From: Myxococcales bacterium
GTDB lineage: Bacteria > Myxococcota > Myxococcia > Myxococcales > JAJYLH01
Length of the DNA stretch: 56,040 bases
NCBI GenBank assembly: GCA_021787845.1
Contig: JAJYLH010000038.1
Span: 1 to 56,040 of the forward strand
Direction: 5' to 3'
Shown one piece after another: positions 8,526 through 50,942 of the stretch (positions are counted from its first letter, which is position 1; the number at the start of each line of letters is the position of its first letter). A program made the translations under genes and the position numbers. The notes below the pieces were generated by a model. The model did no database searches. It saw nothing but the letters and a program-made list of their open reading frames with translations, and was not told the origin of the DNA.

Positions 8526-8817
8526 GGTATCAATCGTTTCGAAAGTGCTTGCGCCGTTACCAGTAGTGCCGGCCCTCCGGACCGGCACCCAGCGATATCG
8601 CTGTCACGCCGGGCCAGAGGGCCGGCACTATTAATCGTTGCGAAAGTAGTCGCAGTCGGAGTCTCGTGGCACAGGCGTCCTCGCCTATGAAAGCCACAAC
8701 GAAGGCTACACGGGCGGGGACGCCCGTGCCACGACTGATGATGCGAGGTGCAGATACTTTCGCAACTAGTACCGAGTCCCATCTGCGTTGCAGCTACTTG
8801 CGCAACGATCAATACCG
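8526..8817. mobile_element. Composite of MITE family M2
   Basis: The outer ends GGTATCAATCGTTTCGAAAG (8526) and CTTGCGCAACGATCAATACC (ending 8817) are diverged terminal repeats of family M2, whose clean copy lies at 40801-40950. A second, better-kept M2 unit lies inside (about 8629-8773). It carries the same interior hairpin as that copy: GTGGCACAGGCGTCC, then CGGGGACGCCCGTGCC. Between the outer left end and the inner unit sits a palindromic AGTGCCGGCCCTC/GAGGGCCGGCACT repeat at about 8562-8630. The arrangement suggests nested insertions. Confidence 0.65.
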
Positions 8818-8851: not shown

Positions 8852-8959
8852 AATATCCCCATGGCTTGGTGCGGTCAACCGGACAAGCAGTTAGGCGATG
8901 AGCTGGGCCCGAACGTGAACGAAGACGATCCCCCGATACGTCCGACTCCGAGGAGCAGC

Positions 8960-13578: not shown

Positions 13579-15089
13579 CGTCTGCTTCTCGTCGCACGGC
13601 TGGATCCGCCGAACCACAGCCAAGTGCCAACCGCCGTTAGCGCCGCGCCTCCGGCGAGCCCCACGATGGACAGTGCCGACCAGGTGTAGTTCGAACCGCG
13701 AGCGGAGACGGGATCTCCGCCATTCGCGTGGCCTTGGGCGTAGGCATCGCGTGCCACCTGTGCCTGCCAGGCCGAGACGCCTCCCCCCGCGACGAACAAG
13801 AGCCCGGCGATGAAGCCCGCTCGCCCCCATCCCACCCGCGCCGGGGCCGGCACCGGTCGGACCAGCTCGGGCCGCGCCGAGACGTTGGCGCTGGGTTGGA
13901 CCTCGACGAGCTTCGGGGCGTGCTTGTGGCCAACAAGCGTCGCAGCGACGGCCCGGCGGCTGAGCGCCAGCGAGCCCTGCGCGCGCGAAGTCTCCACTGG
14001 CATGCTGCCCATCGACTTCAGCAAGAATTTGGGCTTGGTTGCCTCCGCGGTCGTGGTGGGCGTCTGTGGCGGCAAGCCCTTGGGCTCGGTCGTCACCACT
14101 GGCGGCGAGGGCGCGGGCGGCGGTTTTGGCGGCGTCGCGGCAGGTGCCTTCGGCGGAGCGGTCGCAGCGACCGCTGGCTTGGCGGCTCCGGTGGCTGGCC
14201 GGGCTGGAGGGCCGGCACTACTGGTCTCGCTCGCCGGCTTGGTAGTCTTCGCTGCGCCCGTCGCCTGTTGAGAATGCCGCGCGCTGGTCACCGCATCGAC
14301 CTGTGCCAGGCGCATCTTCGCTGCGGCGCGGACGCGACGGTCCACGGCGTGCGCGGCGAGGTCCGCGAATTCCTGTTGCGCGTCTTTGTCCCCCAGCTCC
14401 TGGTGGCATCGGGCGATGCCGAACCGCAGGTTGTCTTGGTCAGCTCGGGCGTGGACGTTCGTCAACGCTCGGGCGTAGTCGTCGAGCGCCTTACGGTACT
14501 GATGATGCTCGAAGTCGTACCGCGCGCTGGTCGCGAGCTCCACCGCTTGCGTCGGCGTCTGGTTCGCGCTCGGGTGCCGCGCGCTGTTCGGGGCTTCGAT
14601 CTGCGCCAGCCGCTTCTTGGCCGCCGCGCGGATGCCGGCGCTTGCAGCATGGGCGGCGAGGTCCGCGAACTCTTGCTGCGCGCGAGGATCCCCGAGCTCC
14701 TGATGACATCGAGCGATGGCGAACCGCAGGTTGTCCCGATCCTTTCGGGCCTGGACGAGCTTCAGCGCCTCGGTGTATTCGTCGAGCGCCGCGCCGTAGT
14801 GCTGATGCTCGAAGTCGTGTCGCGCCCTCGTCGCCAGCTCCACCGCCCGCTTGGCCGTCGCGAACGCCTGGCTCGGCATCAAGCTCAAGGCGAGGCAGAG
14901 CACGGCGATGGTCGGGCGGAGTCTCACTCCTGTCCAAGATTTGCAGCATCGGAGAGCTCCGCTCATCCCGAGCGCAGTCGAGGGACGGGCGCCCCCACGA
15001 AGAACCGCTCGTTCCTCGACTGCGCTCGGAATGAGCGGTTCTTTGCTTGGGCACGAATTCTGTCTTGGACAGCAGTGGCGGAGTCTCAT
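13575..15089 (-). CDS. Periplasmic TPR-like repeat protein, 5' end invaded by a MITE
   Basis: The natural product starts MRLRPTIAVLCLALSLMPSQ (signal peptide). Two copies of a TPR-like block follow, each with a DFEHxxYxxALDxYxxAL core and then ARCHQELGD and QQEFADLAAHA. A Pro/Ala/Thr-rich linker and two C-terminal membrane helices complete it. Before the insertion the ATG overlapped the kinase stop (ATGA at 15086-15089). A 153-bp MITE with a 9-bp duplication now separates codons 1-4 from the remainder, adding 54 in-frame codons. Translation from 15089 therefore puts the signal peptide inside the protein; a GTG at 14927, formed by the element's end, could restart at VRLRPTIAV. The linker also contains a half-copy of the AGTGCCGGCCCTC repeat near 14200-14223. 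Confidence 0.8.
   Translation of the reverse strand: MRLRHCCPRQNSCPSKEPLIPSAVEERAVLRGGARPSTALGMSGALRCCKSWTGVRLRPTIAVLCLALSLMPSQAFATAKRAVELATRARHDFEHQHYGAALDEYTEALKLVQARKDRDNLRFAIARCHQELGDPRAQQEFADLAAHAASAGIRAAAKKRLAQIEAPNSARHPSANQTPTQAVELATSARYDFEHHQYRKALDDYARALTNVHARADQDNLRFGIARCHQELGDKDAQQEFADLAAHAVDRRVRAAAKMRLAQVDAVTSARHSQQATGAAKTTKPASETSSAGPPARPATGAAKPAVAATAPPKAPAATPPKPPPAPSPPVVTTEPKGLPPQTPTTTAEATKPKFLLKSMGSMPVETSRAQGSLALSRRAVAATLVGHKHAPKLVEVQPSANVSARPELVRPVPAPARVGWGRAGFIAGLLFVAGGGVSAWQAQVARDAYAQGHANGGDPVSARGSNYTWSALSIVGLAGGAALTAVGTWLWFGGSSRATRSRR
14925..15077. mobile_element. MITE family M3, copy 1, with 9-bp target duplication
   Basis: A 153-bp element with terminal inverted repeats CACTSCTGTCCAAGA (14925-14939 and 15063-15077) is flanked by the exact 9-bp direct repeat GCGGAGTCT (14916-14924 and 15078-15086). 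Its interior holds two CTCGTCCCTCGACTGCGCTC-type repeats in opposite orientation. Removing the element and one duplication restores an ATGA overlap between the kinase and TPR genes, which is strong support for insertion. It encodes no transposase. Confidence 0.92.
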
Positions 15090-40800: not shown

Positions 40801-40950
40801 GGTATTAATCGTTGCGAAAGTATCTGCACCTCGCATCATCAGTCGTGGCACGGGCGTCCCCGCCCGTGTAGCCTTCGTTGTGTTTTTCACAGGCGAGGAC
40901 GCCTGTGCCACGAGACCCCGACTGCAACTACTTTCGCAACGATTAATACC
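40801..40950. mobile_element. MITE family M2, clean copy
   Basis: A 150-bp element with perfect 22-bp terminal inverted repeats (GGTATTAATCGTTGCGAAAG... at 40801-40822 and its complement at 40929-40950). The interior is an inverted pair, GTGGCACGGGCGTCCCCGCC and CAGGCGAGGACGCCTGTGCC. The same element in opposite orientation forms the core of the composite at 8526-8817. It sits back to back with the M1 copy at 40621-40800. Nothing further was seen to 41061. Confidence 0.9.
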
Positions 40951-49066: not shown

Positions 49067-50080
49067 ATGGCCATGATTCGCGGCTCTGCGCTGTTTCGAA
49101 TGGGACTTGGAGCCGGTCACGTCAGTGGCCGGGTTCATGCTGGGCGTTCGCTCGCTGGCAGCGGCCTGGCGCTGGCTTCCCGAACGCGCGTTCGCGGTGC
49201 CTGCACCCGGACACTGACGTGTCCGGCTCCAATTCCTGCCGAGAAAGAGCACGATCATGAACGCCATATTGTTCCACGCCACCCACCTGAAACGGCGCAG
49301 AGCCTGATTCGCGGTCTTCGAGTCTTGCTGCTCCTCGGAGCGGTCCCTCTTCTCGCGGCGAAGACGCCAGTGCCTCGCGCCCGCCCGCCCGCGCACGCGC
49401 CGGGTAGGGAAAGCTCCTGCATTCGCTGCCACGGCAACCCACGCTTCCTGGTAACGCACCCTCAGCTCTACGAGTACTTTCGAGACTGGAAAGCTTCGGT
49501 CCACGCGCAGGAGGGCGTGACCTGTACCGACTGTCACGGCGGCAATCCGGAGGCGACGGACCAGCGCCGCGCGCACGCGGGGAACATCGGACCGGACCAG
49601 GCGACGAGCGCGGTCAACTATCGCAACATCCCGGCGACCTGTGCCCGCTGCCATCCGGCGGTGGCCGGCGATTTCCGCAAGAGCGCTCATTTCCGGCATC
49701 TGGTCGCCAAGGGCCAGGCGCGCCAGGGACCGAGCTGCGTCACCTGCCACGGCGCGATGAACGTGACGGTGCTCAACATCAACGACGTCCGACCGGCCTG
49801 CGCCCGCTGCCACAACGCCCGGACCGGAAACCATCCCGACATTCCGGCCAAGGCCGAAGCCATTCTCGGCGAGTTCCTCTCCATCCACCGCTACGAACGC
49901 TACATCGCCATCCGGGCGAAGCCGGAAGACCTCAAGGCGACCTTCCAGGTGGTCGATCGGATGGTGCAGGACCTCGACGCCGAGTGGCACACCTTCGACC
50001 TCGCCGCCGTCGGAGAGAAGTCGCAGAAGCTCTTGCGCTTCCTCAAGGAACAGGGTCGCGAGGCCGGTAAGAAACGATAG
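49067..50080 (+). CDS. Pentahaem c-type cytochrome, signal peptide split by a MITE
   Basis: Five CxxCH motifs: CIRCH (118), CTDCH (153), CARCH, CVTCH and CARCH, with a helical C-terminus (FQVVDRMVQDLDAEWHTFDL). ATG 49067 follows GGAGA and begins MAMIR. A 223-bp element plus an 8-bp duplication then adds 77 in-frame codons before GLRVLLLLGAVPLLAA, which clearly was the original signal peptide (MAMIR-GLRVLLLLGAVPLLAA). As it stands the signal is buried at about residue 82, so export and haem attachment are doubtful. An out-of-frame ATG at 49258 ends after 16 codons. It is the last gene of the operon, with another MITE right after its stop. Confidence 0.82.
   Translation: MAMIRGSALFRMGLGAGHVSGRVHAGRSLAGSGLALASRTRVRGACTRTLTCPAPIPAEKEHDHERHIVPRHPPETAQSLIRGLRVLLLLGAVPLLAAKTPVPRARPPAHAPGRESSCIRCHGNPRFLVTHPQLYEYFRDWKASVHAQEGVTCTDCHGGNPEATDQRRAHAGNIGPDQATSAVNYRNIPATCARCHPAVAGDFRKSAHFRHLVAKGQARQGPSCVTCHGAMNVTVLNINDVRPACARCHNARTGNHPDIPAKAEAILGEFLSIHRYERYIAIRAKPEDLKATFQVVDRMVQDLDAEWHTFDLAAVGEKSQKLLRFLKEQGREAGKKR
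49082..49304. mobile_element. MITE family M5 with 8-bp target duplication
   Basis: A 223-bp element with terminal inverted repeats GGCTCTGCGCYGTTTC (from 49082 and to 49304) is flanked by the exact direct repeat TGATTCGC (49074-49081 and 49305-49312). The interior is a long hairpin with arms GGAGCCGGTCACGTCAGTG and CACTGACGTGTCCGGCTCC. Its removal with one repeat gives an uninterrupted signal peptide, which is strong support for insertion. No transposase is encoded. Confidence 0.92.
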
Positions 50081-50089
50081 GAGACGGGT

Positions 50090-50480
50090 CACTCCTGAAG
50101 GGGTATCTCCTTCGTTCAGGTTCAGCGCGGGCTCTTCTCCCGTGGCACGGGCGTCCTCGCCCGTGCCACGGGAGATCTGCCATGCCGGCGGTTCGGCTGG
50201 GCTTCCACGGGCGAGGACGCCCGTGCCACAAGAAAATGGGCATCAACCTGACACTGAACGAAAGCCGATACCCCCGCACTCCTGTCCAAGACATCTTCAA
50301 GATGCGATCGACGATCCGCTCGTCCTGAGGGAAGCGAGCGTTCTTTGCGAGCGGACTCGAAGGACGGGCGCATGCAGGGGGCCATTTCCGCGTGTCCTTC
50401 GAGTCCGGCCGACAAAGAGCCGTCGGCCTCCCCTCAGGATGAGCGGAAATGAAGATCCATCCGTGTCTTGGACAGCAGTG
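50090..50480. mobile_element. MITE family M3, copy 2, interrupted
   Basis: The left end CACTCCTG (50090-50097), continued after an insertion at 50277-50291, and the right end TCTTGGACAGCAGTG (50466-50480) match the termini of the element at 14925-15077. The exact 9-bp repeat GAGACGGGT flanks it (50081-50089 and 50481-50489), the first copy following directly on the stop codon of the cytochrome gene. Without the nested element it is 204 bp. Its interior again has inverted CTCGTCC...GAGGACGAGC-like sequences. Confidence 0.9.
50098..50276. mobile_element. MITE family M4 nested in the M3 copy
   Basis: A 179-bp element ends in inverted repeats GGGGTATC..CTTCGTTCAG (left) and CTGAACGAAAG..GATACCCC (right). 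The host sequence CACTCCTG is duplicated on both sides (50090-50097 and 50277-50284). The interior is an inverted pair, GTGGCACGGGCGTCCTCGCC and GGCGAGGACGCCCGTGCCAC. This interior hairpin is shared with family M2, although the termini differ. Confidence 0.88.
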
Positions 50481-50627
50481 GAGACGGGTATCTGCTCCTG
50501 CCCCTCGCGGCCTCGACCTCAGCACGGCGGCGCTGCTCGAACGCACCGCGACGCTCGTCGATCGCACCGCGTCCCGCAAATAACGTGATCCCTCGTCCCT
50601 CAAGTTTCGTGCGCACGCCCACAGTCG

Positions 50628-50795
50628 CACTCCAACGCTCGTCGATCGCACTCCAATGCTCGTCGATCGCACTCCAACGCTCCCCGATTGCACTCCAACG
50701 CTCCTCGATCGCACTCCAATGTTCCCCGATCGCAGTCCAACGCTCCCCGATCGCACTCCAACACTCGTCGATCGCACTCCAACGCTCGTGCAGCG
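50628..50795. repeat. 21-bp minisatellite
   Basis: Eight units with a 21-bp period of the form CACTCCAACGCTCGTCGATC, with variants CTCCCCGATC and ATGCTCGTC. Minus-strand frames give heptads such as LECDRRA or ERWSAID. Units partly resemble those of the array at 7541-8104 (GCGATC..GAGC on the minus strand). No start, ribosome site or continuing gene supports coding. Confidence 0.88.
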
Positions 50796-50828
50796 CTCCC
50801 CCATGCGCAGCGAGAAGACGTCGCGGTT

Positions 50829-50942
50829 CCCCTCCCCGACCCTCCCCCGCCAAGAACGCGGGAGAGGGGCTAACGCTGCGTTCGCGAAGGCGATCTTTTC
50901 CTCCCTCTCCCGCGTTCTTGGCGGGGGAGGGTCGGGGAGGGG
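50829..50942. repeat. Perfect 39-bp inverted repeat
   Basis: The left arm 50829-50867 (CCCCTCCCCGACCCTCCCCC then GCCAAGAACGCGGGAGAGG) and the right arm 50904-50942 are exact complements, separated by 36 bases. It would form a very stable hairpin in DNA or RNA. It lies beyond the 3' end of the minus-strand gene at 50995-52048 and could act as its terminator, or be another small repeat element. Confidence 0.88.

Follow-up and report, generated by a model that had tools for sequence, protein, structure and literature searches.

The origin of MITE families, and of MITE interiors that are unrelated to the parent element, is poorly understood. MITEs nested in one another, and MITEs derived from IS families, are ordinary, and a nested pair by itself yields just a relative date. 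In the window analysed here, a 56,040-nt stretch of a Myxococcales genome, one such pair (M3 and M4) lies directly behind a cytochrome gene, and M4 shares its inner hairpin with M2, an element with different ends. The locus thus raises the question of which transposases moved the two elements, in which order they arrived, and how one hairpin came to be enclosed by different ends.

Structure of the nested pair and order of insertion

A multihaem c-type cytochrome ORF (49067–50080, plus strand), whose sole relative found in our search belongs to a distant Nitrospira MAG, terminates with TAG at 50078–50080. M3 is flanked by a 9-bp target duplication, GAGACGGGT, whose left copy (50081–50089) abuts this stop codon and whose right copy occupies 50481–50489. 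The first 8 bases of M3, CACTCCTG (50090–50097), double as the left member of the 8-bp duplication that M4 created; the right member lies at 50277–50284. Between these copies lies M4, a 179-bp MITE (50098–50276) with the ends GGGGTATC...TTCGTTCAGGTT, which end comparison assigns to the IS1595 type (AA-GGGGTATCTCCTTCGTTCAGGTT ... GATACCCC-CG). Its hairpin, core-1 (GTGGCACGGGCG ... CGCCCGTGCCAC, 50142–50229), is a high-copy repeat that M2 also carries. The remainder of M3 (50285–50480), recognised by its ends, duplication and fold, contains core-2 (50316–50447), which core comparison also places within IS1595-type ends elsewhere, and finishes with ...CAGCAGTG at 50480. Without M4, M3 comprises 8 + 196 = 204 bp with IS4Sa-like CACTSCTGTCCAAGACA ends, its left repeat CACTCCTGTCCAAGACA being split after base 8. 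Both elements fold end to end, M4 at −113 kcal/mol (z −10.3) and M3 (50277–50480) at −124 kcal/mol (z −11.2). The original prediction had placed both duplications and both elements exactly to the base, and had correctly put M3 directly behind the cytochrome stop.

Removing M4 together with one CACTCCTG restores CACTCCTGTCCAAGACATCTTC..., which is identical at 45/47 positions to the uninterrupted end of the paralogue L002, itself flanked by its own 9-bp duplication, ATCCCGAGC. Because M4 and its duplication split the M3 terminal repeat, and because this uninterrupted paralogue exists, M3 was inserted first and M4 second, as had been proposed. The suggested dating by divergence could be carried as far as identities (87–90% between M4 and its nearest full copies, 95% between the core-2 of M3 and that of L002), which yield relative dates only.

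It is highly probable that the locus records a nested insertion of two foldback elements by two different transposases. Were M3 and M4 instead one composite element with flanking repeats that arose by chance, a reading for which nothing speaks beyond their adjacency, an exact 9-bp and 8-bp repeat pair would have to be coincidental (about 4^-17 for a given pair). Elsewhere, M3-type and M4-type elements are each found singly, flanked by duplications of family-specific length; these independent copies refute the composite element, to which we assign practically no probability.

Just 3' of M3, an array of 21-bp units (GCACTCCAACGCTCGTCGATC) spans 50522–50805, and a solitary CCCTCTCCCGCG-type hairpin follows at 50829–50942. 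The same repeat is carried inside IS1595-type ends by L050 and L111 and thus constitutes a further core.

Duplication length is a property of each family

Genome-wide pattern searches for the termini, allowing up to 3 mismatches, recovered 68 M4-type and 53 M3-type termini, while the reversed patterns used as controls recovered none. The flanks of M4-type pairs match at exactly 8 positions, starting 2 bases outside GGGG, and those of M3-type pairs match at exactly 9 positions that abut CACT. Among pairs with readable flanks, an 8-bp duplication with at most one mismatch was found in 9/20 copies with M4-type ends, compared to 0.43 in shuffled flanks (maximum 4 in 2000), and a 9-bp duplication at the same tolerance in 8/18 copies with M3-type ends, compared to 0.44 in shuffles (maximum 3). 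Since M4 was left out of these counts owing to a small insertion at its right end, and the interrupted M3 was scored as a failure, the test is independent of the pair in the window. The nested reading would have failed if such repeats surrounded unrelated copies at random frequency; they occur far above the shuffled expectation of about 0.4. The window also holds a second M3-type MITE, recognised by its ends and duplication (153 bp, 14925–15077), whose core differs from that of M3 and whose 9-bp duplication, GCGGAGTCT, is located at 14916–14924 and 15078–15086.

M4 shares its ends with an IS1595-family element

The same genome contains a full 1.06-kb IS (C83:80461–81524; L089, L054) that has M4-type ends and is flanked by an 8-bp duplication, CAAACCAG. 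It encodes a 307-aa transposase that matches NF033547 (IS1595 transposase, E 1.8e-54) as well as PF12762 and PF12760, the latter a zinc ribbon. IS1595 elements usually generate 8-bp duplications and typically encode the PF12762 and PF12760 domains, while a 5'-GG start of the termini is the rule given for Merlin (PMC8101967). In this genome, two variable bases separate the duplication from GGGG in MITEs and full IS alike. Given that M4 has the terminal repeats of IS that encode an IS1595 transposase and an 8-bp duplication (CACTCCTG) of the same length as that of the full element, M4 is, judged by its sequence, an IS1595-type MITE, and an IS1595 transposase would have moved it in trans. Two different transposases at the locus, as originally proposed, are thereby supported: M4-type ends are those of an IS1595-family element, and M3-type ends differ in both sequence and duplication length.

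The C83 copy may be a sister and not the direct parent of M4, because their end subtypes differ (GCC in the IS, TCC and GGC in M4). The other IS1595 copies that were checked, in C37 and C153, displayed no M4-type end pair. M4 thus resembles IS1595/Merlin-superfamily MITEs in sharing the ends and 8-bp duplication of an IS1595-family element of the same genome, but its interior is a high-copy hairpin and not a deleted transposase gene, and M4-type ends carry the two variable bases outside GGGG.

M3 resembles the IS4Sa subgroup

The IS4Sa subgroup of IS4 is tabulated with ends of the form CA------T and direct repeats of 8–10 bp (PMC2266710, Table 1). The M3 ends, CACTSCTGT, start with CA and carry T as their ninth base; at 9 bp, the duplication falls within the IS4Sa range. 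Unlike IS4Sa elements, the M3-type elements seen are all 147 to 413 bp long and no transposase was found for them: an autonomous partner with a DDE/YREK transposase and the same ends was not recovered from this genome, and searches of this genome and of 194 further genomes from the phylum yielded no transposase with M3-type ends, those 194 containing isolated single matches and no pair of such ends. The two PF01609 transposases of the genome were rejected as parents since they lack M3-type ends. A pair of M3-type ends spanning 2.67 kb in C148 was rejected as well, as it encloses only efflux/ABC-type genes. Hence the search for full IS with the same termini and duplication length, which had been put forward as a check, succeeded for M4 (IS1595) and produced none for M3. 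By end pattern and duplication length, M3 fits an IS4Sa-like element, a lead rather than a membership, and an IS4-family (IS4Sa-like) transposase that is now absent or unassembled may have moved it.

The core-1 hairpin is enclosed by several types of ends

M4 and M2 had been described as sharing one inner hairpin. This held for the arms (24–25 nt, 96% identical) and not for the spacer between them, which measures 40 nt in M4 and 19 nt in M2. The window contains two M2 copies with core-1 hairpins, one at 8629–8766 with the ends GTTGCGAAAGTA/TACTTTCGCAAC and TATTAATC only at its left end, and one in the opposite orientation at 40811–40948, which is 96% identical to the first and has the repeat TATTAATCGTTGCGAAAGTA at both ends, one extending to about 40803. 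A single degraded IS1595-type terminus is located close to M2 (8912–8934).

The shared hairpin was rightly noted but understated, as core-1 is a genome-wide repeat within several end types. At up to 3 mismatches, 287 arm matches correspond to the order of 140 two-armed copies; at up to 2 mismatches, this genome contains 252 arm matches, compared to 1 in the 194 other genomes of the phylum. Plasmid sequences contained nothing resembling the M4 core, and viral contigs contained one exact arm. In the approximately 55 two-armed copies whose surroundings were read, core-1 was enclosed by IS1595-type ends, M2-type ends (GTTGCGAAAGTA), D ends, or no recognised ends. Element D (CCTGA-TCTACTAAGCC...GCGCTAA), which carries core-1 and showed no target duplication, is a target-specific element; it recurs after CCTGA in IS1595-type termini and core-2/3 hairpins (L002, L065, L132, L136, L141, L166).

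The left hairpin arm of M4 is perfect: where other copies have GCCGCTTGG, it reads CCACGGG, which is complementary to the start of the same arm, CCCGTGG. The TCC end subtype lies on the CTTCTCC arm in M4, L003 and L008, and on the other arm in L005 and L025; TCC and GGC have thus changed places between M4 and L003, on the one side, and L005 and L025, on the opposite side, so that the core lies reversed with respect to the ends.

Core-2 in two kinds of ends, and chimeric elements

Core-2 was identified in M3-type ends (M3, L002, L006, L010, L011, L014, L030) as well as in IS1595-type ends (L012, L015, L016, L020, L028, L045, L092). Flanking duplications of 8 bp surround L012, L016 and L020, and of 9 bp surround M3, L002 and L011. 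Given these duplications, each of the two combinations of core-2 and ends likely transposed as a unit. The signal in a core-2 tree was too low to count swaps. A 43- to 45-bp core-2 unit occurs in tandem in elements with differing ends (L011, L015, L157), and a GGTCTCC..GGAGACC hairpin takes the place of part of core-2 in IS1595-type and M3-type elements (L028, L030, L045, L092).

Three elements combine parts of different families. L025 has IS1595-type arms on both sides, a whole M2-type core between them, and a perfect 8-bp duplication, AAACGTTA. L040 starts with AAGG, continues with a left arm and core of the M2 type, which match M2 at 110/111 positions, and an IS1595-type right arm, and is flanked by the duplication CTGGCCTG; its left switch lies at the shared GGTAT. 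As so little of its left IS1595-type end remains, this duplication may be older than the exchange, which would then represent a conversion in place. In L022, half of an IS1595-type element and half of a D element meet in the core.

These structures could also arise if the cores were independent, REP-like mobile hairpins that inserted into MITE skeletons and were not exchanged by recombination. Core-1, with about 140 copies, and the CCGCTCATCCTGAG-type repeats, with 374 pattern matches, do far outnumber the MITEs, and some core copies lie outside any recognised ends. However, an unsystematic look recognised no target duplication around a bare core, and the exchanges in L025 and L040 take in the M2-specific spacer and have switch points within the shared arms or at their border, like a recombination tract. 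IS1595-type MITEs with core-1 and those with core-2 also have little in common beyond the terminal 23 bp. We therefore regard mobile hairpins as a possible but rather unlikely source of the cores, and prefer exchange by recombination.

The evidence for core swapping comes from one fragmented, repeat-rich genome assembly of 153 contigs, in which several core-1 copies (L007, L009, L013, L017, L019) end contigs, so some of the chimeras could be assembly errors. A mis-join within a repeat would, however, leave no matching 8- or 9-bp duplications, and these are present around the pair in the window, L016, L020, L025 and L040. That the chimeric and nested structures as a whole are artefacts is, in our estimate, very improbable.

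Discussion

At this locus, the sequence shows that M3 landed behind the cytochrome stop codon, making a 9-bp duplication, and that M4 later entered the left terminal repeat of M3, making an 8-bp one. The hairpin cores are high-copy palindromes, which would move from one MITE to another through recombination or template switching at hairpins, and the resulting chimeras would retain working ends and could be mobilised again. We lean slightly towards the view that the hairpin cores of these MITEs belong to no single set of ends and were passed on in this manner, recombination or template switching at hairpins being the likely route of the swapping. The broader proposal is evenly poised: MITEs of unrelated transposases may form a shared recombining pool, in which template switching at hairpins trades palindromic cores, and even individual arms, between elements, and chimeras become mobile via the transposase that recognises the acquired ends.

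Arm homogenisation and spacer inversion have been reported as signs that template switching has acted on inverted repeats (PMC8604942). Comparable marks were observed here as arm homogenisation in M4 and inversion between the arms in L005 and L025, but unlike quasipalindrome template-switch mutations, they lie inside mobile elements, where they could yield new combinations of ends and cores.

A precedent is the streptococcal BOX element. In S. suis, boxA/C and boxE/F surround the same boxB (PMC3049150), so that, as here, different end modules enclose one internal module. The elements of the present genome differ from BOX in that their ends have distinct duplication lengths, one set belongs to a known DDE transposase, and chimeras with one arm of each type exist. 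What is added to this precedent is accordingly the distinct duplication lengths, the identified transposase family for one end set, and visible intermediates. The literature searched yielded no study of bacterial MITEs that are nested and share cores, which does not prove that none exists.

The nesting itself is ordinary; less ordinary is the proposed core swapping across the wider genome, a variant of known modular repeats. With the same cores found in the ends of at least two transposition systems, together with intact duplications and frozen intermediates, the recombination route by which MITEs would acquire interiors unrelated to their parent elements becomes directly testable.
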